A stretch of DNA of 64,000 bases from Cohnella laeviribosi DSM 21336 (GTDB lineage Bacteria > Bacillota > Bacilli > Paenibacillales > Paenibacillaceae), in assembly GCF_000378425.1 (NCBI RefSeq), contig NZ_KB899809.1, positions 1 through 64,000 on the forward strand. Direction: 5' to 3'. Below are positions 31,704 to 46,119 of the stretch, piece by piece (the stretch's first letter is position 1; each line of letters starts with the position of its first letter). The notes beneath the pieces are model-generated. The model had not been told where the DNA came from. It was given only the letters and a program-made list of their open reading frames with translations, and ran no database searches. A program made the position numbers and the translations under genes.

Positions 31704-32789
31704 TCAGGAAGGATCCGCATTCGGGATACGATTTCGAATCGCCTCAACCGCCTTGCGCACGGTTTCCTCCACCACGACAGCCGCCGGCACAGGCTTCACC
31801 AAGCGCAATCCCTGCCCGGCCCAGAGGGACATGTACTCCGGACGGTTTGCTTTGGCGGCCGCCTGGCGAATGTCGCGCGTGAGCGCGTTTTGAATCGGAT
31901 AGGGCGGCACGTTCCCTGGGTAAGAAGACATTCTCTTCATGAAGGTTGTCATCAGTCCGCGGGCGGCTTTGCCGGAATACATGGCGGTAATGGCCGTCTG
32001 TTCTTCTGTTGCGGCCTCCAGCGCTTTTTTGTAGGCGGGATGCGCGCCGCTCTCCGGGCTCGCGATAAACGCGGTGCCCATCTGCACGCCGTCCGCGCCG
32101 AGCATGAGGCAGGCGGCGAGTCCTCTCCCGTCCATGGTGCCTCCGGCTGCGATGACGGGAATAGAGATCGCATCCGCCACCTGCGGAACCAGGGCCAAGG
32201 TGCCGATGAGCGCGGTTTCCGCCTTGTCCGCGAACGTCCCCCGATGCCCGCCGGCTTCGCTGCCCTGCGCCACAACAGCGTCAACGCCCGCATCCTCCAA
32301 AGCCAATGCCTCTTTCACCGTGGTCGCCGTTCCGATCGTATAGATGCCTGCCTGCTTGAGCCGCCGCATGACAGCCGAGTCCGGAATGCCGAACGTAAAA
32401 CTGAATACAGGCACCTTCAGCTCGATGACGGCGTCGAGTTGCTCATGAAAAGGCTCCGCCGCTTTCGCGATTTCGGGGGAGTTCGGGATGCCGAGCTCAT
32501 TGCGAAACGTGTCGAGGGTTCGATTCATCGCTTGAATATCTTCAACGTTCTCCTGATAGCTTTCGGGGATAAACAAGTTTACGGCAAACGGCCGATCGGT
32601 ATGGCGGCGAATGGTTTCCACCGCGAACCGGATTTGCTCTGCGCTCATGTAGCCCGCGCCGAGTGTGCCAAGTCCGCCCGCGTTCGATACCGCGGCTACC
32701 AGCTCAGGCGTGGTGACGCCCCCGGCCATACCGGCCTGTATAATGGGATATGCGATCTTCAACCGTTCGGTCAGACGCGTACGCAACAT
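31704..32789 (-). CDS. nitronate monooxygenase-family flavoprotein
   Basis: This TIM-barrel FMN protein of about 361 aa has PIIQAGMAGGVTTPELVAAVSNAGGLGTLGAG near the N-terminus, VVAQGSEAGGHRG (the FMN-site GSEAGGH motif), PVIAAGGTMDGRG and GADGVQMGTAF. The family oxidises alkyl nitronates or reduces quinones and enoyl compounds. ATG 32789 is chosen because homology starts there, with GGAAGGGG upstream. It is a single gene between the dehydrogenases and an MFS gene. Confidence 0.9.
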   Translation of the reverse strand: MLRTRLTERLKIAYPIIQAGMAGGVTTPELVAAVSNAGGLGTLGAGYMSAEQIRFAVETIRRHTDRPFAVNLFIPESYQENVEDIQAMNRTLDTFRNELGIPNSPEIAKAAEPFHEQLDAVIELKVPVFSFTFGIPDSAVMRRLKQAGIYTIGTATTVKEALALEDAGVDAVVAQGSEAGGHRGTFADKAETALIGTLALVPQVADAISIPVIAAGGTMDGRGLAACLMLGADGVQMGTAFIASPESGAHPAYKKALEAATEEQTAITAMYSGKAARGLMTTFMKRMSSYPGNVPPYPIQNALTRDIRQAAAKANRPEYMSLWAGQGLRLVKPVPAAVVVEETVRKAVEAIRNRIPNADPS

Positions 32790-32969
32790 GTTGCCGCAAC
32801 CCCTTCCAAATGATTTCTGGCGTATTGAGAAAATAACACCTTCGGTTCCGATAGGGTCAAAAGAGCCGTGATTCCTAACCAATAACCCAATGTCGCAAAA
32901 CCATTCCAACTTGTCACGGCAAAGCGTCGGGAAAGGACTGCCGCGTGGAGATAAACGGCCTGTTCCTCC

Positions 32970-34193
32970 TCATCCGGAATGAACGTGAGGCCTGCCTCCT
33001 TTGGATTTCAGGGCCGAGCCGATTTTGACGGACAACCCCATCGTCAGCAGGCTTCCCGCGCATGCGAACAACCAGTTGTAGCGGTACCCGAAGCTGTCGG
33101 CAATATAGCCTGCGGCTAGAGGGATCAAGAAACCAAACAGCGAGCCGACGGCGTACATGGCGGAAATATACGTCGCTCTTCTCTCGCTTGGGATGACGTC
33201 GTGCACCCATACGGACGCTGCGCTGCTATCGAGGCCGAGACCGAATTCGATCAGGCAAGCCCCGATATAAAAAGCGATTACCGTCGTGCTGAATGCCATC
33301 GTTAGCGAACCCAATGCAATAAAGGTTTGACTGATAATGGAAACGCTGACGCCATCCAAACGCTGCAGGATTATCCCCGCCAGAAAGTTCCCTCCTGCTA
33401 ACACAAGCATAAAAACAGCCATCGTGACGCCAAGATAGGCCGCGGGCAATTGCAACTCCTTGATCATGTATAGTTGCCAAATGATAACGAACGTTTGAAA
33501 GGCAATTCGTGCCGCAGCGGCGCGGAACATCAGCATCCGGAGAAAAGGCTCCTTCATCAGATCAACGGTATTGCGAACGACGGCCCTGCCAAACGAAATA
33601 TGCTTGTCGCCATAGTTTTCTTGCAGCCAGAATAGCAGCACGGCACCTGCGGCCATGGCGAGAGATCCGGCGAGCAGCAAGGGAAACGAAGGGTGGTCGG
33701 CCACAAGCTTGGAGCATAATAAGGCGACCGCCGCCCCGATCATCAGGGAAGCGGCATCGGCTCTCGGGAAAACTTTGGCTTTTAGATCCGGCTTCCCCTC
33801 TTTGGACAACTCGTCGACCAGCCACGCTTGCGGCGTTCCGCTGATCAGGGAAATACCGGCAGCCCAAAACACAATACTGACGACAAACCAAGCCTGAATA
33901 TCGGCTTGAACGAAGGCCAGCAAGCCGATTGCCCAGATCGCGAAGCCGAATACCATCGCTCGCTTTCGCCCGAATTTATCGGCTAGGTTGCCGGTCGGAT
34001 AGTCGAATAAACTTAATGCCAGCGATGCAGCCGCCAATACTTGTCCGACCTGAAAGGAAGTAAGCCCCTTTTCGCTCATATGAGCGACGTATACGGTGCC
34101 GTATAGCTTATCAATACAGGTATAGAGCAAAATAATGAAATAATATTTTAGAACCGTTGCATTCGGCCTCTTCCTCCCAACGATACGCCCCAT
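32970..34193 (-). CDS. MFS transporter
   Basis: The 407-aa protein has 12 predicted spans. The MFS loop motif DYPTGNLADKFGRKRAM lies between spans 2 and 3, and a related one (VHDVIPSERRATYISA) follows in the second half. It is probably an efflux permease. It is divergent from the modified-peptide cluster starting at 34481, so it might export or give immunity to that product, although operon evidence is lacking. Confidence 0.82.
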   Translation of the reverse strand: MGRIVGRKRPNATVLKYYFIILLYTCIDKLYGTVYVAHMSEKGLTSFQVGQVLAAASLALSLFDYPTGNLADKFGRKRAMVFGFAIWAIGLLAFVQADIQAWFVVSIVFWAAGISLISGTPQAWLVDELSKEGKPDLKAKVFPRADAASLMIGAAVALLCSKLVADHPSFPLLLAGSLAMAAGAVLLFWLQENYGDKHISFGRAVVRNTVDLMKEPFLRMLMFRAAAARIAFQTFVIIWQLYMIKELQLPAAYLGVTMAVFMLVLAGGNFLAGIILQRLDGVSVSIISQTFIALGSLTMAFSTTVIAFYIGACLIEFGLGLDSSAASVWVHDVIPSERRATYISAMYAVGSLFGFLIPLAAGYIADSFGYRYNWLFACAGSLLTMGLSVKIGSALKSKGGRPHVHSG

Positions 34194-34480
34194 CGGTTTG
34201 CTCCCCCTTCACGCTTCGTTCCTCCATGCGATTATTTTAGCCAAACTCTTTCTATGCTTCCATCCTATTCTACCAAATGGTTCGGCAACCGGCGCCGGAC
34301 GAGGGCCGGCAAGGGTTCCCGCAGCAACGGCCGCCTCATCCGCTTTACGAAAATCCTGTTGTAGGTATTTGGAGGAGTAACAAGAGCGGATGGGTTTTCA
34401 TAAATTGAATGTGTAGTTTGTCGAAATGAGTGGTGATTTCCCCAGCGTAATTTCATTAAATAAGCGGAGGTTATAAACAA

Positions 34481-34744
34481 TTGGATCATTTCAAAAAAGA
34501 ACTGAAAAAGCTGAAAGTCTCTGAATTTCATGCGGGAGAGGCGACGCCTTGGGATCATCAAGCCCCGCATGAATCCGATCCGGCCCGGTTATGCGTTGGC
34601 CTTTGCGTCGGTTCTTGCTTTGTCCAATGTTTCAACTGCTTCCGATGTCAGAACTGTTTCCGGTGCCAAAACTGTTTCCGGTGCCAAAACTGTTTCCAAT
34701 GCCAAAATTGCTTTCAATGCCAAAATTGTGCCCGCTGCCGGTAG
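34481..34744 (+). CDS. heterocycloanthracin/sonorensin-type TOMM precursor peptide
   Basis: The 87-aa peptide starts at TTG 34481 with GGAGG ten bases upstream. Its leader (MDHFKKELKKLKVSEFHAGE, then TPWDHQ) resembles the heterocycloanthracin leader. The core from about residue 37 is Cys-rich: CVGLCVGSCFVQCF followed by six hexapeptide repeats of the NCFRCQ/NCFQCQ type. Cysteines would be cyclised to thiazoles by the YcaO enzyme downstream and oxidised by the SagB-type enzyme. The usual Gly is replaced by Phe, Arg, Gln and Asn between the cysteines, which is unusual. A hairpin follows before the maturation genes. Confidence 0.88.
   Translation: MDHFKKELKKLKVSEFHAGEATPWDHQAPHESDPARLCVGLCVGSCFVQCFNCFRCQNCFRCQNCFRCQNCFQCQNCFQCQNCARCR
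34634..34741 (+). repeat. six tandem 18-bp repeats encoding the peptide core
   Basis: Six in-frame units of 18 bp each encode N-C-[FA]-[RQ]-C-[QR]. Units two and three are nearly identical, and the outer ones have drifted. The array ends one codon before the stop. Copy-number change would lengthen or shorten the core without breaking the frame. Confidence 0.88.
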
Positions 34745-34781
34745 TGATGCCGCAAACGAGAAAAAACCGATTGCAAAAGTC

Positions 34782-34815
34782 ATAGCTCGGCATGCAACCG
34801 GGCTATTTCTTTTTT
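34782..34815 (+). terminator. hairpin between precursor and maturation genes
   Basis: A nine-pair stem (ATAGCTCGG / CCGGGCTAT, one mismatch) is followed by a T-rich run. A leaky terminator here would give more precursor than enzyme transcript, a common arrangement for ribosomal peptides. Confidence 0.75.
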
Positions 34816-34932
34816 ATGGGCTATCTGAGCCCTTCTCTACAAGATCAGGCAAAAGGGACAAATAGCCGTACATAGGATTACAGTGGAAAGCAATGCGCAG
34901 ATTGGAGAACGGCCCACGTAAGGAGGAGTATC

Positions 34933-36903
34933 ATGACGAATTTGCATCCTTCCATGCGTTTGAAGGTGAAAAGCGACACGTTTTTTCTCCCGGATCCCAA
35001 CGGCAGCGTTTATTTTCGGAACAATCGGGTCTCTTTCCGCATGGAGGGCGATTCGATCGACCAGTGGATTGAAACCTTGATACCGGCGTTCAATGGAGAG
35101 CACACGCTGGAAGAGCTGACCGACGGATTGCCGGACGAATATCGGGTCCGGGTGTACGAAATCGCGCAAGCCTTGTACCGAAACGGCTTTGTCCGGGACG
35201 TGAGCCGGGATCGTCCGCATCGGCTGCGAGATGACGTTCTCCAAAAATACGCATCACAAATTGAATTTCTGGACAGCTTCGGGGATTCGGGCGCGTACCG
35301 CTTTCAATCCTATCGTCAGGCGAACGTGTTGGCGGTCGGCTCCGGCCCGTTTTTTGTCTCGTTGGCGGCGGCGCTGCTGGAATCCGGATTGCCGAAGTTC
35401 CGCATGCTGATTACGGATGCGGTGCCGACCAACCGGCAGCGGTTGGCGGAACTGGCGATGCATGCCCGGCAAACGGACCCCGAGGTGGCTGTGGAAGAGA
35501 TCGTCCTGCGGAAGAACGGAGCGGAATCTTGGCGGGAGACGGTGCAGCCGTATGATGCGATTTTATATGTGTCGCAGAAGGACGACGTTGAGGAACTGCG
35601 GGTGCTGAACGCGGTTTGCCGGGAGGAGAAAAAGCTGCTGCTCCCCGCCCTTTGTCTGCGGCAGGCGGGGCTGGCGGGCCCGCTGGTCCATCCGGACGAT
35701 GAGGGATGCTGGGAATCGGCGCTGCGCCGCATACACTCGTCCGCGCTGAACAAAGACCCGCAGCTGCACGCCTTCTCTCCCGCAGCCGGGGCGATGCTGG
35801 CGAACGTGATCGTGTTCGAATTGTTGAAAACGGTCGCGGGAGTGAACGAATCCGAACGAAAGAACAAATTCTTTCTGCTTGATCTGGAGACGCTGGAAGG
35901 AACCTGGCATTCATTCTTCCCCCATCCGCTGGCGGGCGGACGTGCGGCGGCCGAATGGGTCGAAGATGTCGAGCAGCGGCTGGAGCGGAGTTCGGGCCAA
36001 AGAGAGCCCCATGGATTGCTTCCCTTCTTCAGTAGGCTGACATCGGCCGAATCGGGGATCTTCCACCTTTGGGAAGAGGGGGAATTGAAGCAGCTTCCGT
36101 TGGCCCAATGCCGCGTTCAGCCGACCGACCCGCTGTCGGAAGGGCCTGCCGAGCTGCTGCCGGAGGAGATCCGCGCAGGTTTGACGCACGAGGAGGCGCG
36201 GCGGGAAGCGGGGTTGGCCGGAATTGAAGCGTACGTGTCGCGGATGGCCGGTCTGCTCATGACGCCTCTCCCCTCCCGCCCGGGCGAAAAGGGAAATCCG
36301 GTCGAAATCCGGGAATTTGTCGGCGTCGGAGCGGGCGAGACGGTGGCGGAAGGCATTGGCCGCGCCCTGCTGGCATGCTTGGCCGAAGAGCTGCGCAAGC
36401 GGCTGGCGGATCGGCCGCCTTCCGTCCTTCCGGTGCGGCTGGACGAGGTGGAAGACGAACGCTGCCGGTTTTATTTGCAGGCATTGACCACGCTGCGGGG
36501 CTCGCCGCCTTTGATCGGCTGGGGAACGGAAGTGAACGGCTTTCCGGTGGCGTGGGTCGGTTCGAACGGGAGCTGGCATGGCAGCGTGGGCTTGAATCGG
36601 ACATTGGCGCTCAGGGAGGCGCTGCTGCAAGCGCTGCTGAAAGCGCAGAACGAAGCGGCTGGACCCGCAACGCATACGCTGGAGGTTTCGTCCGTGCGGA
36701 CGGAAGAACCAGAGGCTCTGCCAAGCCCTGCGATCCCCTCGCATGAAGAGGCGTTCGGCACGGAAGATCTGCTGACCGCCCTGCAGATCCTGAAGCGGAG
36801 CGGCAAGCGACTTCGGGTCCTCGATCTGGCGCAGGAACCGTTCTTGAAAGAGGGACTGGCGGGCGTGTTTGGCGTGCTGCTGCGAGAGGAGGAAGCCCGA
36901 TGA
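34933..36903 (+). CDS. thiazole-containing bacteriocin maturation protein (ThiF/E1-like)
   Basis: The 656-aa protein starts at ATG 34933 behind AAGGAGGAG. It matches the 'putative thiazole-containing bacteriocin maturation protein' family. An N-terminal region (about 1-90) resembles the leader-recognition winged helix of ocin-ThiF proteins, then an E1/ThiF-like Rossmann core follows (VLAVGSGPFFVSLAAALLESG). The C-terminal half is alpha/beta sequence specific to this family. It likely binds the leader peptide and delivers it to the cyclodehydratase. Its stop overlaps the YcaO start by four bases. Confidence 0.85.
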   Translation: MTNLHPSMRLKVKSDTFFLPDPNGSVYFRNNRVSFRMEGDSIDQWIETLIPAFNGEHTLEELTDGLPDEYRVRVYEIAQALYRNGFVRDVSRDRPHRLRDDVLQKYASQIEFLDSFGDSGAYRFQSYRQANVLAVGSGPFFVSLAAALLESGLPKFRMLITDAVPTNRQRLAELAMHARQTDPEVAVEEIVLRKNGAESWRETVQPYDAILYVSQKDDVEELRVLNAVCREEKKLLLPALCLRQAGLAGPLVHPDDEGCWESALRRIHSSALNKDPQLHAFSPAAGAMLANVIVFELLKTVAGVNESERKNKFFLLDLETLEGTWHSFFPHPLAGGRAAAEWVEDVEQRLERSSGQREPHGLLPFFSRLTSAESGIFHLWEEGELKQLPLAQCRVQPTDPLSEGPAELLPEEIRAGLTHEEARREAGLAGIEAYVSRMAGLLMTPLPSRPGEKGNPVEIREFVGVGAGETVAEGIGRALLACLAEELRKRLADRPPSVLPVRLDEVEDERCRFYLQALTTLRGSPPLIGWGTEVNGFPVAWVGSNGSWHGSVGLNRTLALREALLQALLKAQNEAAGPATHTLEVSSVRTEEPEALPSPAIPSHEEAFGTEDLLTALQILKRSGKRLRVLDLAQEPFLKEGLAGVFGVLLREEEAR

Positions 36904-38843
36904 ACGCGGTTGTGCTGGTTGTCGGAGAAGGGCTGCTGGCGGACTTCGTGTGCACGGAGCTGTCCGCCCTGTATCGGGTAATTCATCAACCCGATTTTAA
37001 GGAACAGGGACCGGCAACGGCGGATTTGGCTTTGGTGCTGCACGATTCCTGGCAGCCCTCCGTTCCTCGCATGGCGGAGGAGGTTTTTCAGCCAAGCGGA
37101 ATCCCGTGGCTGCGCGGCTTTGTCTCATTGGGCGAAGGCGTTGTCGGGCCGTTGGTGCGCCCGGGCGCGCCGGGATGCTCGCGCTGTGCGGATATGCGGC
37201 GCCTGATGGCGGGACGCGACCGCAGGGAGATGCGGGAGCTGCAACAGCGGCTGGCGGCGCGCGGGGAAACGCCGCGCGACGCCTGGGCGTCGCGTACGGC
37301 GCTTTGGCAGATGGCCCATTTGCTTGTGGAGGAGGCGCAGCGGATCTTGCAAGGCGGCCGGGCCCGCACGGAAGAACGGGTGTTCTTGATCAACCTGAAT
37401 ACGCTGAAGAGCTCGCTTCACTTCTTTTTGCCGGATCCGCTGTGTCCGGTCTGCGGCCGATTGCCCGAAGATTCGCCGGCAGCCGCGCGAATTTCATTGC
37501 AGCCAAGTCCGAAGATCAACGCCGACAGTTACCGCTGCCGTCCCATGGATGATCTGAAGAACGTTCTGGCCGCGTCTTATCTGGATTACCGGACGGGCTT
37601 ATTGAACGGGAAAATGCACGACCTTGTGTCGCCGTTTGCCGATGTGAGCGTGAATTTGCCGTTGTTTGCGGGGGACGAATCGTCCGCAGGCCGGACCCAT
37701 TCCTATGCGGAAAGCGAGTCGACCGCCATTTTGGAAGCTTTGGAACGGTACTGCGGTTTGGCTCCCCGCGGCAAGCGGACGGTAGTCCGCGACAGTTACC
37801 GCAATCTGGAAGATCAAGCGCTCAACCCCGTCAAGGTCGGCTTGTACGCCAAGGAACAGTATGCGCGGCCGGGATTTCCGTTCGCGCCGTTTGACCCCGA
37901 CCGCCCGATCGATTGGGTATGGGGCTACTCGTTTTTGCAGGAGCGCCCGATTCTCGTTCCGGAGTTGCTCGCCTATTACAGCCTGAGCTGCGGGGAGGGC
38001 TTTGTCTATGAAACGTCCAACGGATGCGCGTTGGGCGGAAGCCTGGAGGAAGCGATTTTTTACGGCATATTGGAAGTGGTGGAGCGCGATGCGTTCCTGA
38101 TGACCTGGTACGCGCGGCTGCCTCTCCCCCGCCTCGACCTCGATTCCGCCGGCGACCGCGAGCTGCGGCTGATGGCCGAACGGTTGCAGGCGGTGACGGG
38201 ATACGAAGTCCATTTGTTTAATGCGACGATGGAGAACGGAATTCCAAGCGTTTGGACCATCGCGAAAAACCGAAAAACGAAAGGGGTCAATCTCATCTGT
38301 GCGGCCGGATCCCATCCGGACCCGGTACGGGCGGTCAAAAGCTCGCTTCACGAATTGGCCGCCATGCTGCTGACGTTCGAAGAGAAATTCGAGTCAAACC
38401 GCAAGACGTATGAGCAAATGCTCCACGATCCGTTCCGGGTACGTCAAATGGAAGACCATTCGATGCTGTACGGGTTGCCGCAAGCGGAGGAACGCCTGCA
38501 ATTTTTGCTGGAAAACAATCGTCCGTTGCGGACGTTTGCCGAGGAATTCGGATCGAAAGCGCGGCATGCCGACCTGACCGATGATCTGAGAGACCTTCTC
38601 CGGGCGTTCCGCCGGCTGAACCTTGAAGTCATCGTCGTGGACCAGACGACGCCGGAAACCCGGCGAAACGGTCTGTATTGCGTGAAAGTGCTGATTCCGG
38701 GGATGCTGCCGATGACGTTCGGATATCACCTTACCCGCTTGACAGGGCTGGAAAGGGTATTGCGGGTACCGGCGCAGCTTGGGTATGCGAAGGAGCAGCT
38801 GACGCCGGAACAGCTCAATCCGCATCCGCATCCGTTTCCGTAA
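36900..38843 (+). CDS. YcaO cyclodehydratase with fused leader-binding domain
   Basis: The 647-aa protein has an N-terminal ThiF-like/zinc domain (CSRCADMRR and CPVCGR supply four Cys). The YcaO domain follows from about residue 200: SAGRTHSYAESESTAILEALERYCG (ATP/Mg motif) and SNGCALGGSLEEAIFYGILEVVERDAF. The C-terminus is NPHPHPFP, the PxPxP end important for YcaO cyclodehydratases. It uses ATP to convert Cys (and Ser/Thr) into azolines on the precursor. It is coupled to the preceding gene by a four-base overlap. Confidence 0.92.
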   Translation: MNAVVLVVGEGLLADFVCTELSALYRVIHQPDFKEQGPATADLALVLHDSWQPSVPRMAEEVFQPSGIPWLRGFVSLGEGVVGPLVRPGAPGCSRCADMRRLMAGRDRREMRELQQRLAARGETPRDAWASRTALWQMAHLLVEEAQRILQGGRARTEERVFLINLNTLKSSLHFFLPDPLCPVCGRLPEDSPAAARISLQPSPKINADSYRCRPMDDLKNVLAASYLDYRTGLLNGKMHDLVSPFADVSVNLPLFAGDESSAGRTHSYAESESTAILEALERYCGLAPRGKRTVVRDSYRNLEDQALNPVKVGLYAKEQYARPGFPFAPFDPDRPIDWVWGYSFLQERPILVPELLAYYSLSCGEGFVYETSNGCALGGSLEEAIFYGILEVVERDAFLMTWYARLPLPRLDLDSAGDRELRLMAERLQAVTGYEVHLFNATMENGIPSVWTIAKNRKTKGVNLICAAGSHPDPVRAVKSSLHELAAMLLTFEEKFESNRKTYEQMLHDPFRVRQMEDHSMLYGLPQAEERLQFLLENNRPLRTFAEEFGSKARHADLTDDLRDLLRAFRRLNLEVIVVDQTTPETRRNGLYCVKVLIPGMLPMTFGYHLTRLTGLERVLRVPAQLGYAKEQLTPEQLNPHPHPFP

Positions 38844-38868
38844 GCCGCGTCAAGGAGGAGGCAGAAAG

Positions 38869-40449
38869 ATGAATCTGGAGGCATTTCTGCACGATCTGCA
38901 TTTTGAAGCCGACAGGGCCAGACCGCCGGACTGGGAGGTGGATTGGACGGATGCGCCGCTCCCGTATAAGCTTTACCGCGGCTTGCCTGCGGTCCCGCTT
39001 TCGTTGGAGGTGCCGCTGTCGCTGGAAGAACGGAAAGCGCCCGCCGCCCCCGGCCTGCGCGGAATCGGTCATTTTCTCTGGTACGTGTTCGGGTACACTC
39101 AATTCTACCAGTCGGTGTTCGCCGGGGACGCCGCGGAACAAGAAGCGGCTGCAATGCAGATGTGCCGGCGCTTTGTTCCCTCCGGCGGGGCGTTGTATCC
39201 GAACGAATTGTACGTGTATCTGAAGATAGAGGATTTGCCTGCGGGCGTGTATCATTATGATGCGGCCCGCCACCGCTTGGTGCTGTTGCGCGAAGGCCAT
39301 TTCGATTCCTATCTGGCACGCGCGCTCGGCAACCGATGCGACGTGTCGGCTTGGTTCGGCGCGGTGTTTGTGTCAACCCTGTTTTGGAAAAATTTCTTTA
39401 AGTACCATAACTTCGCCTACCGGCTGCAAGGGCTGGACGCCGGCGTGCTGATCGGGCAGCTGTTGGAAACGGCGAAACGGTTTGGTTTCGCGTCGGGCGT
39501 TTACTTCCAATTTCTCGACCGGGCCGTCAACCATCTGCTCGGGCTATCCGAACGGGAGGAGAGCGTGTATGCGGTGATTCCGCTGTCGGCGGAGCCTTCG
39601 ACCGCTTGGTTTGCCGACAGGCCGGACGATGCGAGGGAGATCGACGACGCCGAATTGTGCCGGGAGCTGTCAGCGGTTCGGCACGAGCACTACGTCCGGT
39701 CGCGCAAGGTCGCAGCGTATCCGATGCTGATCCGGATGAACGAAGCGTCCATGCTGGCCTCGACGCGATCGTTCCGGCAGCTCCGGGAGGAAAAAAACGT
39801 TGACGAGGAAGGCCGGGCGGTAGCTCTGCCCCGCGTGAAGCGGTTGTCGTACGATCTGGCGTCGGCCTGCCGCAAGCGGTTTTCACCGGAAGCGGATTTT
39901 GTCCGGGGCCATGTAAGCCAATCGCAGCTAGCCGCTCTGTTGCAGGAGGCGACGGCTTCCTTTTGGTATCGGAACGATTTGGATGGAGCGCATGAGCAGC
40001 CGGGCTGCCGCGTCTCGCTGTATGGCTGTCTGCACGGCGTGGAAGGTATTCCGGACGGCGCCTACCATTATGACAGCGACGCCAATGCCTTGCGGCGGAT
40101 ACGTCCCGGCGATCACCGGTTCCGGCTGCAACAAGCCATGTCTTTGCACAATATCAATTTGTTTCAAATACCGCTTTGCCTGCATGTGGCGGGGGACCGA
40201 AATCACCTGATCACGGAACTGGGGTACCGAGGCTATCGCATCCAGCAGATGGAAGCGGGCATGCTCGTGCAACGTTTGCTGTTGGCGGCGTCCGCCATCG
40301 GGATGGGGGGACATCCGCTCCTCGGATTTGACACGAACTCGTGCGACGAGATCTACAATCTGGCTCCGCAAGGGAAAACCAGCCTGATCCAAATCCCGGT
40401 CGGGCCCTATCGTCCTCGCCCCCGGCTGGGGGGAAGCTTGCATGGCTAG
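38869..40449 (+). CDS. SagB-type azoline dehydrogenase, two nitroreductase-like domains
   Basis: The 526-aa protein contains two nitroreductase-like halves, each with YPNELYVYL/VSLYGCLHGVEGIPDGAYHYD-type segments (GVYHYD near 125; GAYHYD near 400). FMN-dependent SagB-type enzymes oxidise azolines to aromatic thiazoles or oxazoles. GGAGG precedes ATG 38869. It completes the precursor/ThiF-like/YcaO/SagB gene set. No peptidase or ABC exporter is adjacent. Confidence 0.9.
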   Translation: MNLEAFLHDLHFEADRARPPDWEVDWTDAPLPYKLYRGLPAVPLSLEVPLSLEERKAPAAPGLRGIGHFLWYVFGYTQFYQSVFAGDAAEQEAAAMQMCRRFVPSGGALYPNELYVYLKIEDLPAGVYHYDAARHRLVLLREGHFDSYLARALGNRCDVSAWFGAVFVSTLFWKNFFKYHNFAYRLQGLDAGVLIGQLLETAKRFGFASGVYFQFLDRAVNHLLGLSEREESVYAVIPLSAEPSTAWFADRPDDAREIDDAELCRELSAVRHEHYVRSRKVAAYPMLIRMNEASMLASTRSFRQLREEKNVDEEGRAVALPRVKRLSYDLASACRKRFSPEADFVRGHVSQSQLAALLQEATASFWYRNDLDGAHEQPGCRVSLYGCLHGVEGIPDGAYHYDSDANALRRIRPGDHRFRLQQAMSLHNINLFQIPLCLHVAGDRNHLITELGYRGYRIQQMEAGMLVQRLLLAASAIGMGGHPLLGFDTNSCDEIYNLAPQGKTSLIQIPVGPYRPRPRLGGSLHG

Positions 40450-40603
40450 GCGCGAAAAAGGCGAAAAGCGTCCGCCCCTCCCCCGTTATTTGCGGAATCT
40501 TCCTTGATCTATGCTCATGCACAGACCGTACGATGATCCATTCATACTCTAATCATGTGATGAACAATCACACAACACCGAAAAGAAAACAGGAGGTGAT
40601 TCC

Positions 40604-40717
40604 ATGAGCTATCCTGTTGGCGGTTACGGAGGCGGCGGCCTCCGTGCCGCTGCATTCGTTCTCGTGCTTTTCATTCTGCTGGTCATTATCCTGAGAGCGG
40701 GAATCGGTATTTTCTAA
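40604..40717 (+). CDS. YjcZ-family small sporulation protein
   Basis: This 37-aa peptide (MSYPVGGYGGGGLRAAAF, then a hydrophobic VLVLFILLVIILRAGIGIF) has the Gly/Tyr-rich head and single hydrophobic tail of YjcZ-type proteins. AGGAGGTGAT lies just before ATG 40604. Such proteins are typically made in sporulation, which supports a spore-forming host. It is too short for most gene finders. Confidence 0.85.
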   Translation: MSYPVGGYGGGGLRAAAFVLVLFILLVIILRAGIGIF

Positions 40718-40742
40718 GCCATCCAAATCTTTATTTTATTCC

Positions 40743-40777
40743 CATCAGCTCAATCGAGCGCGATGGGCTTTTTTTAT
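40743..40777 (+). terminator. terminator of the yjcZ-like gene
   Basis: CCCATC / GATGGG closes a 15-base loop and is followed by CTTTTTTT. It lies 26 bases after the yjcZ-like stop. Confidence 0.8.
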
Positions 40778-40816
40778 TTCGGCTCCGGCATCCCCTGCCG
40801 GCACGGCGCCGGCCGC

Positions 40817-42961
40817 TTATTGGAGCCATCGCGGCGCCCACCAATTCCATTTGCCAAGCCATTTCATCAAGGCTGGAACCAGCACCATCCGGATGACGGT
40901 GGCATCGATGAAGATCGCCGCGGCAATGCCGATCCCCAACTGCTTGACCCCGGCTACTTCGCCGAAGGCAAACGGCCCGGTGACCGCAATCATGATCGCC
41001 GCTGCCGAGGTGATGATTCTGCCGGTCGAGGACAGGCCGGCCCGAATCGCATGGTCGTTATCGTGTGTCTGCCTGTAGGCCTCATAAATCCGCGAGACAA
41101 GGAACACGCCATAATCCATGCTGATGCCCCAAACAAGCCCGAAAATAAAGACAGGGATCATAATGGCGATGCTGCCCGGCTCCATTCCCAAGCGTCCCTC
41201 TTCGAAGATCCAGGACAGAATCCCGAACGCCGCCCCCAGGCTCAGCAGATTCATCGCCATGAGTTTGACCGGGAGGAGAACGGATCGGAAGGCGGCAATC
41301 AGCACCATGAATTGGGTGGCGAAGATGAACAGAAGAACATCCTTGAGGTTTGGAAAAATGGCGTCGAATACTTCCTGCTGGTACTTCGCTTCTCCTCCCA
41401 ACAGGAAACGGATCCGGGAGGACTCCCCCTCCTGCTCCAAGCGCCTGAGCCAATCCGTCGCTTCCTTCGATGACGGGCTTCCTTTTATCGTCACCTGAAG
41501 GAGCATCCGATTTTCGTTCACAAATGGTTTAATCGCCGGTTCATCCTTCTCTCTTAATACCGGACTTGGAAGCAAAAGGCTTGCCTGTTCGGGCGGCATT
41601 CGCAAGCCGGAAAAAACGGAATCCACCCGCAGCACGTTCGGGTCGCGCTCCAATCGCTGCGTGAACGCATACGCCTGCAACCAGTCCTCTTTATGCCAAC
41701 GATGCGAATTTCCCTGGATGACGATGTACACTAGCGAAGCCGAAGGGGAAACGAAATGGGCCTGATAGGCCTCTGCAGCTACTCGGGAAGCGTAGCCGGG
41801 CGGCAACGAAGCGGCATCCGGAATGGCTACTTTCATTTTGCTTAAGGGCAGAAAACAACCGATTAACAAGAACGATGCCAACAGCCCCATGCGGACGGGT
41901 CTCTTCATCACATAGCGCGCCCAGGCGTGCCACACCGTCGTTTTCCCGTTTGCGGACACCGGCTTGCTTTCCGCTTGAATGGACGGCCACAACACCGTCA
42001 ACAGAGCCGGAACCAACGTTAAAGCCGTAAGCGCCGAGACCGTCAAGACCGCCATCGCTCCCATCGCGACCGTACGAAAGATAGGCAGCGGAATGAACAG
42101 CGTCCCCAGCAAGCCGAGAAAAACGCAAGCAGCGGAAAATAAAACGGCTCTTCCGGCCGTCTGCATGGTTGTCTCCAATGCTTGTTCTACGGCGGCATGC
42201 GCCGATTCTTCGCGAAACCGGCTGACCAGCATTAAGGCAAAATCGATGCTCAAAGCCAGTCCCACCATGGGAATGACATTCAGCACAAAGTTCGACAGCT
42301 CGACCTTCGTCCCCAGCCAAGCCATGATTCCCATCGTTCCGATCACCCCGATCACGCCAACGGCAATGGGAATCAGAGCGGAAACGAATCCGCCGAAAGC
42401 CAGCCATAAAATAAGAAAAGCAACCGGGATGCCCAGCCGTTCCGCCTTTCTCAGATCATGTCCGCTGGCTCGGTTCACGTCCGCTTGGACGGCGGATTTC
42501 CCGGTGATGTTCACCGAAATGCCGCCGCTCTTCGGCAGCCGTCTTTGCATTTCATCAAGCACCGGCTCCATCTCATAAGGGCGTTGCTCGAACCCCAGAA
42601 GCGCATAGGCGTAATTCTGTCGCATCATCCCTTCCCGTTCGAGCGGAGAGACGACTTCGCTCAGCCCGCCGATTCCTTGCAGCCGAAACAGCGTTTGGCC
42701 GATAAAGCGCCGAAATTGCGCCTCGGTTACGGGCTGCTTTTTTTCAAAAACAAGAATGACGGGGTCCTCGGGGATGTGAAAATCGGCAGACAGCATTTGT
42801 TGGACTTTGGCATAGGCTCCGTCCGGGGTTAAACCGTGATCCTTAAGAACGCCGGGCAGCTTCGGGGCGTAAAAGCCGAAGAAGAGCAGGAACAAGACCC
42901 AAAACAAGATGATGGTTTTCGGGTATCGCAAAGAGATGACGGCAAGCTTGCGGTAGCCCAT
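40817..42961 (-). CDS. MMPL-family RND exporter
   Basis: The product of about 714 aa has two repeats, each with a span, an extracytoplasmic domain and a bundle of five spans (12 in all). It carries MMPL motifs such as GLALSIDFALMLVSRFREE and ISMDYGVFLVSRIYEAY, with proton-relay Asp/Tyr. ATG 42961 has GAGGAG at better spacing than ATG 42967. It ends the type III PKS operon and probably exports the lipid-like polyketide product; MmpL proteins export lipids in actinobacteria. Confidence 0.9.
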   Translation of the reverse strand: MGYRKLAVISLRYPKTIILFWVLFLLFFGFYAPKLPGVLKDHGLTPDGAYAKVQQMLSADFHIPEDPVILVFEKKQPVTEAQFRRFIGQTLFRLQGIGGLSEVVSPLEREGMMRQNYAYALLGFEQRPYEMEPVLDEMQRRLPKSGGISVNITGKSAVQADVNRASGHDLRKAERLGIPVAFLILWLAFGGFVSALIPIAVGVIGVIGTMGIMAWLGTKVELSNFVLNVIPMVGLALSIDFALMLVSRFREESAHAAVEQALETTMQTAGRAVLFSAACVFLGLLGTLFIPLPIFRTVAMGAMAVLTVSALTALTLVPALLTVLWPSIQAESKPVSANGKTTVWHAWARYVMKRPVRMGLLASFLLIGCFLPLSKMKVAIPDAASLPPGYASRVAAEAYQAHFVSPSASLVYIVIQGNSHRWHKEDWLQAYAFTQRLERDPNVLRVDSVFSGLRMPPEQASLLLPSPVLREKDEPAIKPFVNENRMLLQVTIKGSPSSKEATDWLRRLEQEGESSRIRFLLGGEAKYQQEVFDAIFPNLKDVLLFIFATQFMVLIAAFRSVLLPVKLMAMNLLSLGAAFGILSWIFEEGRLGMEPGSIAIMIPVFIFGLVWGISMDYGVFLVSRIYEAYRQTHDNDHAIRAGLSSTGRIITSAAAIMIAVTGPFAFGEVAGVKQLGIGIAAAIFIDATVIRMVLVPALMKWLGKWNWWAPRWLQ

Positions 42962-42989
42962 GACCATGCTCCTCTGTACGGCGGTTTGA

Positions 42990-44135
42990 TTACAAATCGG
43001 ATTCTTTTAACCGGGTCGCTTGAACCAATCGGAACGCCCATTCCGGTGCGAGGCGCCCGATGGCCGGAAGAAGCCGGGGCATGACCGGCACGCCGACCAG
43101 CCATTGCAGAAATCGTCCCCACCGCAAGGGACCCTTGAATTCCCGCCGAATGGATCGGGCGTATTCGTGCTCCCACCGGGAAAGCGAAATCTCCCCGCGC
43201 AAATAGCTGTCGGCCAAGGACCCGCACAATTGGGCCGAACGCAGCGCCATCGACATGCCGTCGCCGCAAAGCGGCGGAATCAGGAGCGCCGCATCTCCCG
43301 CATGGGGAATCGAATCCCAAACGACCGGCTTGCGGTGGAAATCGATCGGGGCGACTGCCGCCTGCGTGCCGGGAACCGGAACGGCAAACGCCAGCTTTTG
43401 CCCAAGCTTCGGATTGCGGCGGACCGCGGCCTCGATCATGTCCAAGATCGTTTTTTCCGCATGGGAAAAAGCGTTCCGCGCCAGCAGCGCCGCAACGTTG
43501 ACGAGTCCGCCTTCAATGGGGGAAACGCCCAAGTATCCGCCGGGAAAAAAATAGAGCTCGACGACCGGCTCCGGCGCTACCCCTGCAAAATGGGATTTCA
43601 CGCCCACATACCGGTTCCTTGCGGCCCCCTTGCGGCGATGGCCCGGAAGCCCGGAGCGGCGGTTGGCTCCCCACGCGGCAATGACGGCTCGCGCATGATA
43701 GATTTGACTTTCCTTCCCCTGCCTCGTCTCGATGACATATCCCTCTCCATCGGGATAAACGGACGTTGCCGTCGCCGCGGTCTGCACGTGTACGCCTGAT
43801 TTTTGCGCCGCGCGGTGGAGAGCCAAGTCCAGCGCGTAACGGCTTACCCCCAAAGCAATCCCGGGCAAAGGAATTTCCAGAGGCCGTTCTTGGCCGAAGA
43901 ACAGGCGCGCCCGTTCGATCAAGCTGGGCTGAAGCGACGCCACCGTCTCTTGCAAGCCCAGCGCATGCAGCATCCGTTGGGATTCCGGGGAAAGAAATTC
44001 TCCGCAAACCTTATGGCGGGGGAACGTTTGGCGGTCGATCAACACCGTCTCCCATCCTTTATCCGCCAACGCTTTGGCCACACTGCTGCCGGCGACTCCC
44101 GCCCCTAGAACCGCCACATCCCGCAAGCGCCCCAT
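42990..44135 (-). CDS. FAD-dependent oxidoreductase (geranylgeranyl reductase/monooxygenase-like)
   Basis: The product of about 381 aa has VAVLGAGVAGSSVAKALADKG (FAD motif), RHKVCGEFLSPES and a DAALLIPPLCGDGMSMALRSA segment (second FAD motif), typical of the geranylgeranyl-reductase/hydroxylase group. ATG 44135 lies a few bases after the methyltransferase stop. In the type III PKS operon it likely hydroxylates or reduces the polyketide or its quinol form. Confidence 0.86.
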   Translation of the reverse strand: MGRLRDVAVLGAGVAGSSVAKALADKGWETVLIDRQTFPRHKVCGEFLSPESQRMLHALGLQETVASLQPSLIERARLFFGQERPLEIPLPGIALGVSRYALDLALHRAAQKSGVHVQTAATATSVYPDGEGYVIETRQGKESQIYHARAVIAAWGANRRSGLPGHRRKGAARNRYVGVKSHFAGVAPEPVVELYFFPGGYLGVSPIEGGLVNVAALLARNAFSHAEKTILDMIEAAVRRNPKLGQKLAFAVPVPGTQAAVAPIDFHRKPVVWDSIPHAGDAALLIPPLCGDGMSMALRSAQLCGSLADSYLRGEISLSRWEHEYARSIRREFKGPLRWGRFLQWLVGVPVMPRLLPAIGRLAPEWAFRLVQATRLKESDL

Positions 44136-44140
44136 CGTCC

Positions 44141-44881
44141 TCAACTCCGCTGTTTGAATTCGGCCCCGTTTTTCCGAATGACGACGACATACCGAAACAA
44201 AGGTCTCCAATTATAGAATTTTCCGGATAGGCCCAGCGACTTCCCGAGAGCGTTCCAATCCTCCGCGCGAAAACCCTTCGCCACCGACAAAGGGCCGTCG
44301 TTTCGAATATACCGGTTGTTTGAAACGATTCGCGTCGCAAGCCATACCGCGGCCCAAGGCATCCAATGCCGGTGAATGTCGTTGATCACAACGCCTAACC
44401 GGGATGCGTTGAGCATGCGTTCGACCGCGCCGGGCAGCTCGTCCGCGGCAAAATGATGGACAAACTGCGTCCCCGTGATCACATCCGCGCAAGCTTCCGG
44501 CAGCGCGAACAAATCGCTTCTCATCACCCGTACTCGCGGTTCGCGGCGATAGAACCGTCTCGCCTCTTCGCAAGCTTCTTCCGTAATGTCCGCCAAGGTA
44601 AGGCTAAGCTCGATCCGGTTCGCATCCGCCCACCGCAGAAGACGCCGGTTCACGTCCCCGGACCCCGATCCGATATCCAGAACGGAGAAGCGCTTCGGCT
44701 TGCCCGCTTCCGTCCACAATCGCCGCACTCCGTAAAGAGTAGGCGCGGCGGCCCCGAAGATCCGGTTCAGCCTGCGGAGATGCCGCAAAGCCTTGCGAAG
44801 CTCGGGTCCCCCCTTCGAGAAGTCATCCATCATTTCGGGCTCTTCGGCCCGCTGCCGCAGGCTTCTAAACACATACGCCAC
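44141..44881 (-). CDS. class I SAM-dependent methyltransferase (PKS-associated)
   Basis: This methyltransferase of about 246 aa has the SAM loop FSVLDIGSGSGDVNRRLL and an N-terminal EEPEMMDDFSKGGPELRKALRHLRRLNRIFG region typical of type III PKS-linked methyltransferases. GTG 44881 is chosen because GGAGGAG lies seven bases upstream, inside the end of the PKS gene, so the two genes overlap by 17 bases. It may methylate the alkylpyrone or resorcinol product, as BpsB does in Bacillus. Confidence 0.87.
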   Translation of the reverse strand: MAYVFRSLRQRAEEPEMMDDFSKGGPELRKALRHLRRLNRIFGAAAPTLYGVRRLWTEAGKPKRFSVLDIGSGSGDVNRRLLRWADANRIELSLTLADITEEACEEARRFYRREPRVRVMRSDLFALPEACADVITGTQFVHHFAADELPGAVERMLNASRLGVVINDIHRHWMPWAAVWLATRIVSNNRYIRNDGPLSVAKGFRAEDWNALGKSLGLSGKFYNWRPLFRYVVVIRKNGAEFKQRS

Positions 44882-46016
44882 CTGCCGGCTCCTCCAGCAA
44901 AACGACGGATGGAAGATAGGCGATCTTGGCCATTTCAACGGTTAAGCCGGGGCCGAACGCCAAGGAGATGCCGTTCACCGGTCCGGAGCCGGAGGCGCTT
45001 AATTCCCGCTTCATCTCGTTAAGCACGAATAGGATCGTAGCCGAGGATACGTTGCCGTAATGACGAAGGATGGCCCGGCTGGGACGGGTTTGCTCGTCGG
45101 TAAGCCCCAACGCGTCTTGCAGCGCATCGACAATTCCCCGGCCTCCGGGATGAATCGCCCATAGATCCGGCTTCGCGCCGCCGTTTAAGATCCGCTCGAT
45201 TTCTTCGGGAACCCATCTGCCGATCAGCTTCGGAATATCCGGGGAAAGATAGAGATCGAAGCCGTGATTGCCGACTTCCCAGACCATCTCTTCGGCATAG
45301 TCCGGCAGGAGAACGGAATAGTCCTGGTCCAACCGAAAGATTTCCTTATCGTGCGGCCTGGCGGAACCCACAACGCAGGCGGAGGCTCCGTCGCCGAAGA
45401 AAGAAGCGGCAAACAGGGCCTCGCGCCCGCCGGAAGGTTGAATATGAAGCGTGCACAACTCCACGCAGACCACCAATACTTTGGCGTCCGGATTAGCCGA
45501 CACGATCTGCCGCGACAGGCAGATGGCCTTCAACCCGGCAGCGCATCCCAGGAAGTTCAGCGGAATCCGATTCACATCGGCAGCCAGCCCCAATTGTCGG
45601 ACCAAAGCCGCATCCATCCCCGGAAGAAATTGCCCCGTACAGCTAACGGTGATCAGGTGCGTAATGTCGGCAGCATCCGTTGCTCCATCCCGTAAAGCTT
45701 TTCTCGCGGCTTGAAGCCCTAATGGAACAGACTCCCGTTTATACGTCGCCATCCGTTCGGCGGTTGTCGGAACGTCTTCCCTCGGCAGGCTCGGAAAATA
45801 GCGGCATTCGGAGGCGGATTCAAGCAGGTTCGGTTCACAGGTATAGCGCGTCTCCACTCCGCATTGCTTGAATATTCGCCTGGCCCAGCGCGCGGAGTCG
45901 GGATTTCCCTGCAAGGCTTCCGTCAATCTTCGTGAGGTATCCTCCTGATCGATCCGAAAACGCGGAACGGCCGTCCCTATTCCCAGGATTGCGATGATTG
46001 GCGCCGCATGTTCCAT
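44865..46016 (-). CDS. type III polyketide synthase (chalcone/stilbene synthase family)
   Basis: This thiolase-fold enzyme of about 383 aa has catalytic Cys in LNFLGCAAGLKAI, His in WAIHPGGRGIVDA and Asn in HYGNVSSATILF. CoA-linked type III PKSs extend fatty-acyl starters with malonyl-CoA into alkylpyrones or alkylresorcinols. It is similar in context to BpsA. ATG 46016 is preferred over 46025 for ribosome-site spacing. It heads the operon PKS-methyltransferase-FAD oxidoreductase-MMPL exporter. Confidence 0.93.
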   Translation of the reverse strand: MEHAAPIIAILGIGTAVPRFRIDQEDTSRRLTEALQGNPDSARWARRIFKQCGVETRYTCEPNLLESASECRYFPSLPREDVPTTAERMATYKRESVPLGLQAARKALRDGATDAADITHLITVSCTGQFLPGMDAALVRQLGLAADVNRIPLNFLGCAAGLKAICLSRQIVSANPDAKVLVVCVELCTLHIQPSGGREALFAASFFGDGASACVVGSARPHDKEIFRLDQDYSVLLPDYAEEMVWEVGNHGFDLYLSPDIPKLIGRWVPEEIERILNGGAKPDLWAIHPGGRGIVDALQDALGLTDEQTRPSRAILRHYGNVSSATILFVLNEMKRELSASGSGPVNGISLAFGPGLTVEMAKIAYLPSVVLLEEPAGGVCV

Positions 46017-46119
46017 TCCCTGCATCCTTCCTCTCGTACCCTATTTAAACATCCATCATATCGGACATGTATCCGGCCTTTAATCATGTTTATGGGTACA
46101 AGCTGCGCAATATGACAGC

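Follow-up and report, generated by a model that had tools for sequence, protein, structure and literature searches.

We found that the genes of a thiazole-peptide cluster in Cohnella laeviribosi DSM 21336 are preceded by two conserved promoter architectures that look like sporulation promoters, one before the precursor gene and one before the enzyme operon. In our judgement the mother cell probably operates this heterocycloanthracin-family azole-peptide system while the spore forms. The promoters speak for a link with sporulation, and the peptide could be part of the spore programme rather than a secreted antibiotic. Heterocycloanthracins have been filed as bacteriocins since 2009, and the cluster itself is of a known type; what is new is the spore-type promoter pair before its genes. 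The window, i.e. the whole stretch of DNA that was analysed, comprises 64,000 nucleotides, and the following features were located in it.

34362-34366, + strand: TAGGT, a GerE-like box (TRGGY), 13 nt upstream of the promoter AC (from the sequence)
34379-34402, + strand: AACAAGAGCGGATGGGTTTTCATA, −35 and −10 of the candidate sigma-K-type precursor promoter, AC-N17-CATA (genome search, de novo motif)
34481-34744, + strand: precursor of the heterocycloanthracin/sonorensin family, 87 aa, TTG start (TIGR03601, 53.1 bits, cut-off 35)
34634-34741, + strand: core repeat of six NC[FA][RQ]C units, residues 52-87 (translation)
34782-34806, + strand: terminator-like hairpin between the precursor and the F gene
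34856-34874, + strand: GGACAAATAGCCGTACATA, SpoIIID-like box and −10, candidate sigma-E-type promoter of the F operon with AAA as its −35 triplet
34933-36903, + strand: F protein (ocin-ThiF-like), the presumed leader-binding partner (TIGR03693, 747 bits, cut-off 561.9)
36900-38843, + strand: fused C + YcaO cyclodehydratase with the C-terminus PHPHPFP (TIGR03604, 446.4 bits; TIGR03882, 163.8 bits)
38869-40449, + strand: double-domain SagB-type azoline dehydrogenase, the B protein (TIGR03605, 207.8 bits, cut-off 78.4)
40604-40717, + strand: tiny one-helix membrane peptide ORF, possibly associated, 155 nt downstream of sagB (sequence only)

All four genes (precursor, F, C + YcaO, SagB) are complete within positions 34481-40449 of the window, and each scores above its curated NCBIfam cut-off, which is 219.25 bits for TIGR03604 and 36.9 bits for TIGR03882 in the case of the cyclodehydratase. 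An earlier note on this DNA had described a precursor, a ThiF-like protein, a YcaO protein and a double-domain SagB protein as complete, contiguous members of a thiazole/oxazole-modified peptide (TOMM) cluster; the open reading frames and the curated models for all four genes agree with it. The precursor, which scored 47.6 bits with TIGR03601 in the whole-genome search, has GCGGAGG (34464-34470) ahead of its TTG start and an N-terminus, MDHFKKELKKL..., that resembles the leaders of its relatives. Residues 11-90 of the F protein match PbtF (structure 8t19, E 4.6e-7). Both TIGR03882 and TIGR03604 lie on one protein, the fused C + YcaO, whose solved relatives are the TruD and LynD structures. The dehydrogenase has two SagB/nitroreductase stretches by NCBIfam and Pfam and matches 3eo7 and McbC in structure.

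The 4.48-Mb genome contains a single TIGR03601 match and a single YcaO match, while homologues of the leader and the F protein occur in many genera; for these reasons the cluster is more than a chance arrangement. It is an ordinary, complete member of the widespread Bacillus-type thiazole-peptide family. The Rfam scan of 34195-40760 gave no family at gathering score, and the search for precursor relatives in viral contigs gave two pattern matches and zero relatives.

The core is where the earlier note had seen novelty. Recounting of the translation agrees with its six NC[FA][RQ]C units, and the precursor holds 16 Cys, the last 13 of which follow one another at an exact period of three (Cys-Xaa-Xaa). 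According to the available text of Haft 2009 (PMC2674419), Cys-Xaa-Xaa repeats with varying residues are what defines the family, and Cys-Gly-Gly and Cys-Trp-Ser members were already contrasted there. We therefore took a census of 169 distinct precursors, drawn from genomes and from 80 named loci (78 with a precursor). At least three NC[FA][RQ]C units were present in 17 of them, the window's counted, and at least three NCx[RQHN]C units in 51; Marinithermofilum abyssi (L063/L207) has nine NC[FA][RQ]C units in a core very similar to the one studied here, and other relatives carry (NCH)n, (CHH)n and (CS)n cores. Hence the idea of an unusual core, unlike heterocycloanthracin and sonorensin units, did not hold, the precursor being above the TIGR03601 cut-off and the same units recurring in that census. 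The bulky and charged residues between Cys are indeed present; they are common across the 169 precursors and not distinctive, so that the core is one more variant. The note had also proposed a comparison of core repeats across genomes, and this turned up similar cores elsewhere rather than a singular one. That the core marks a separate class of azole peptides, as the note had it, is thus very improbable and is refuted at the family level by the TIGR03601 model together with the census, even if the exact core letters were not noticed among the other precursors listed.

We also compared 60 regions of 10.5-19 kb around these clusters. The broadly shared genes were F (60 regions), B (59) and CD (58); 58 of the 60 regions have them arranged as F-D-B, and no exporter, peptidase or immunity gene was broadly common to the 60 regions beyond these three enzymes. 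The next ORF clusters (at least 70 aa) were found in 20 regions (precursor ORFs) and then in at most 11. In the available text of Cox 2015 (PMC4603692), the same three enzymes are given for all clusters. The lack of a peptidase and an exporter, which the earlier note had pointed out, is therefore borne out and is the family norm.

Several neighbours were noted in passing. Upstream of the small ORF at 40604-40717 there is its own AC (40525)-N16-CATACTCTA (40543). We take this ORF to be YjcZ-like; it had no Pfam family at E 0.1 and one NCBIfam match far below the cut-off. As a constant neighbour it was rejected, since such an ORF occurred in 5 of 140 loci scanned, the window among them, and lies outside the core set. 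Further along, on the minus strand (40817-46025), an MMPL transporter, an FAD oxidoreductase and a methyltransferase stand in a row by Pfam, with a further ORF that is presumably a type III PKS by its look; this row is perhaps an alkylpyrone-type cluster. In five of 20 family regions examined by eye (L124, L125, L127, L129, L131), a His/Pro/Tyr-rich repetitive protein is encoded convergently with the dehydrogenase gene. The three of these five proteins that were scanned had no NCBIfam family over the cut-off; the protein looks like a coat-type low-complexity protein.

The precursor promoter element was first spotted by eye in the upstream regions of 49 precursors. De novo search of 108 precursor upstreams returned the motif CAGTAACAAtAGCG, mostly followed by TTCATA. 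The combination T[AG]GG[CT] followed by AC-N16/17-CATA was present in 42 of the 108 (shuffles: mean 0.6, maximum 3), and the strict CATANNNTA form in only 14 (shuffles: mean 0.8). Study of the misses revealed an AGTAGCA variant, in place of AGTAACA, in Neobacillus and others, and the pattern was widened to G[GT]RRC[AC]-N16-CATA. This form was found in 121 of 169 distinct precursor upstreams, leaving 48 without it, against 9 of 638 control ORFs of the same regions; at the other cluster genes it was found in 2 of 60 upstreams for F and in none of 117 for D/B. As the DNA ahead of many control ORFs is itself coding, the comparison was repeated with 296 intergenic controls of the same G+C content (0.407 vs 0.401), and the contrast held (7/296). 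When the box was demanded as well (TRGGY + RCA-N16-CATA), the counts were 91/169 for precursors, 8/638 for control ORFs and 7/296 for intergenic controls, and T[AG]GG[CT] then AC-N16/17-CATA gave 81/169 against 9/639 control ORFs of the same regions. The distance between AC and CATA was 17 nt in 94 of 103. Both the precursor and the F patterns were designed and widened on the same data, from loci that share descent, and as they were made and widened after the data had been seen, these pattern counts are not formal p-values.

It was possible to trace the element across taxa. With a gap of 15-17 and 420 nt searched, the named set has it in 74 of 80 precursors and 24 of 27 genus labels, and together with the GerE-like box in 66 precursors and 19 genus labels. 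In the genus Cohnella it is found in seven of nine precursors, being absent from L002 (Cohnella luojiensis) and L005. Precursors lying away from the enzymes (on another contig, at least 40 kb distant, or in G560, which had no F match) carry it in 10 of 17 cases. In the family to which Aneurinibacillus belongs, the genomes G560 and G570 each gave six precursor matches, several of which have a copy of the element to themselves; no F gene match was found in G560.

The long form, AACANNAGCGGA-N5-12-TTCATA, has one match in the whole 4.48-Mb genome, namely the promoter, and its reversed control has none. Among 295 family genomes there were 40 matches (reversed pattern, 9). When positions were compared by eye, 28 of them were seen to precede an F gene by 0.5-0.7 kb in its orientation, and all 28 have an inner gap of 6-7 nt. 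Genomes not used for making the pattern account for 14 of these 28, and 11 of the 12 remaining matches have other inner gaps. The exact long form is absent from the F-bearing genomes G014, G020 and G032 of the same genus, and from G004, whose F match is below the cut-off.

Sigma-A, E, G/F, H and B patterns stayed within the shuffle range at the 108 precursor upstreams. The AGCGGA part of the element, which is almost exclusive to these precursors, is unexplained by sigma-K or GerE and may be the site of another regulator. In a permissive scan of the interval from promoter to precursor for a small, conserved membrane ORF, 72 of 170 upstreams showed some hydrophobic stretch; overall this was unconvincing. 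Five loci (L057, L060, L067, L177, L186) show a possible short hydrophobic peptide there (e.g. ..VVFLIIFVLFFL..), which is broken or missing in other loci.

Which sigma factor could read this promoter? The layout of sigma-K promoters is AC-N16/17-CATA, the GerE consensus is TRGGY, and dpaA is a sigma-K-dependent gene of the mother cell. We took the dpaA upstreams from 30 genomes, this strain's own included, as a positive control, and 28 could be placed. All 28 contain AC-N16-18-CATA (64/296 in intergenic controls), with a spacing of 17 nt in 29 of 32 matches, and 20 of the 28 have a TRGGC box between −35 and −10. The precursor promoter therefore shares with dpaA both AC-N17-CATA and a TRGGC/TRGGY box, but differs in the position of the box, which in dpaA lies between −35 and −10 and at the precursor upstream of −35. 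GerE bound at the dpaA site might repress, whereas a GerE-like box upstream of −35, as at the precursor, would suit activation. The 17 nt between AC and CATA also fit the promoter described in the available text of Eichenberger et al. 2004 (PMC517825), with a 5-nt −35, a 10-nt −10 and 15±1 nt between them. The precursor promoter has the sigma-K/GerE architecture, and it looks like a sigma-K-type promoter with a GerE-like box, the identities of sigma factor and regulator being putative.

Both factors were sought in the genome. The sigK gene is over the cut-off in one open frame, and gerE is split, with matches to residues 5-51 and 43-73 about 11 kb apart on one strand. The two pieces lie outside the window (G000, contig C3:191639-203203; L283) with sugar-transport-like genes between them, and a 536-aa ORF (L283:1298-2908), by eye a large serine recombinase, adjoins the 3′ part. 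In layout the split resembles the gin element in gerE of B. cereus ATCC10987, as far as it is described in the available text of PMC5595907.

The F operon is separated from the precursor by the terminator-like hairpin listed above; the region holds 14 such sites against a shuffle mean of 9.2, which is weak evidence alone. Before F we detected the conserved element CATrAGGGACAAATAGCnGTACATAAGAT. The core of the SpoIIID consensus is GGACAR, and sigma-E promoters resemble ATA-N17-CATA. The pattern GGACAR-N3-14-CATA was found in 76 of 120 F upstreams, and after removal of duplicates in 66 of 109, so that 43 distinct upstreams lack it; shuffles of the F upstreams gave a mean of 0.5 and a maximum of 3, and the controls 3 of 647 ORFs, 2 of 296 intergenic regions and 1 of 170 precursor upstreams. 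Between GGACAR and CATA, 59 of the 66 have an inner gap of 9 nt, and 48 of these 59 have ATA or ATG at a distance of 17 nt ahead of CATA. In the window the family-wide element is present with AAA where ATA or ATG is usual; the positive control, dpaA, covers the sigma-K class. The F operon thus looks as if it has its own sigma-E/SpoIIID-like promoter, the factors being named from motif resemblance.

The occurrence of the family points in the same direction. The F model TIGR03693 matched 83 of 398 class genomes, 61 of them over the cut-off, and SpoIVA is present in 268 of the 398. Compared by eye, all 61 genomes with F over the cut-off have SpoIVA, as do 81 of all 83; the two exceptions (G557, G740) are weak partial matches. 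Most SpoIVA genomes have no F. This co-occurrence fits a spore function, and it is partly confounded by phylogeny, as the lineages are not independent.

Enzymes early and precursor late, both in the mother cell, is the simplest reading of the two promoters. In the early mother cell, RNA polymerase with sigma-E, together with SpoIIID, would make F, the fused cyclodehydratase and the dehydrogenase, and later sigma-K with GerE would make the precursor. F would bind the leader, the cyclodehydratase would close Cys residues into thiazolines, and the SagB enzyme would oxidise these to thiazoles, at up to 16 Cys in this strain. The product would then be deposited on the spore or released when the cell lyses. 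Since it would be made in a cell about to lyse, an exporter, a peptidase and an immunity gene would not be needed in the cluster, and the two conserved promoters, provided that they have been read correctly, would account for a family without them. If so, the product is to be expected in late sporulation, in mother cells or spores and not in the supernatants of growing cells, and the function of the family becomes directly testable in many harmless spore formers. For the family across Bacillales we incline, with more reserve than for the present cluster, to a mother-cell product with sigma-E/SpoIIID enzymes and a sigma-K/GerE precursor, acting as a spore-coat or a lysis-released spore-protection molecule. 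The literature covered (titles and abstract openings, with subscription papers thinly represented) gave no link between the family and a sporulation promoter.

A rival reading would be a plain bacteriocin secreted by growing or stationary cells to kill competitors, cleaved and transported out by proteins whose genes lie elsewhere, and driven by an unknown stationary-phase regulator. The family name speaks for it, as does sonorensin, reported as a killing peptide in the available text of PMC4544038, and such genes are up in B. cereus biofilm cells according to the part of PMC6962202 at hand. Variable cores and multiple paralogues would fit an arms race, and the near specificity of AGCGGA to these precursors would suit a separate regulator. 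However, no exporter, peptidase or immunity gene is broadly common to the 60 regions, the sigma-A pattern is not in excess at the precursor, the CATA of the −10 and the 17-nt spacing match dpaA, and the F operon promoter resembles the sigma-E/SpoIIID type. We consider the secreted bacteriocin unlikely. The earlier note had raised a possible new antibacterial product; antibacterial activity is no requirement of the family model, and the promoters speak for a role in sporulation.

Mother-cell production leaves two fates for the product, and in one of them the azole peptide would be a structural component of the spore coat or spore surface. This form of the preferred explanation is a real possibility that we hold tentatively, at somewhat less than even chance. 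It would explain repeat cores of very different chemistry, rich in His, Ser or Gly; the (NCH)n, (CHH)n and (CS)n cores look low-complexity and coat-like, and less like a target-tuned drug. In B. subtilis, coat genes make up a large share of the sigma-E genes that depend on SpoIIID (10/25, the authors' unpublished data, in the available text of PMC517825). Because of the His-, Ser- and Gly-rich cores of the relatives, we lean slightly to the coat over an antibiotic freed by lysis.

Among known systems, thiopeptide clusters (thiocillin, thiostrepton) likewise have an F-dependent fused cyclodehydratase, and the F protein and fused cyclodehydratase of the present family group with theirs in the available text of PMC4603692. 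They differ by having a dehydratase and a pyridine synthase, neither of which was seen among the ten proteins encoded at 31704-44938 (Pfam) or among the genes common to the 60 regions. The closest counterpart is the heterocycloanthracin/sonorensin family (TIGR03601; HCA group), with the same leader, Cys-Xaa-Xaa core, F protein, fused cyclodehydratase and B protein, and likewise with no further broadly conserved genes. Unlike in most B. cereus clusters, as far as the available part of PMC4603692 describes them, the precursor here adjoins its enzymes, and within the family this precursor is set apart by its own core letters, NCFRCQ/NCFQCQ.
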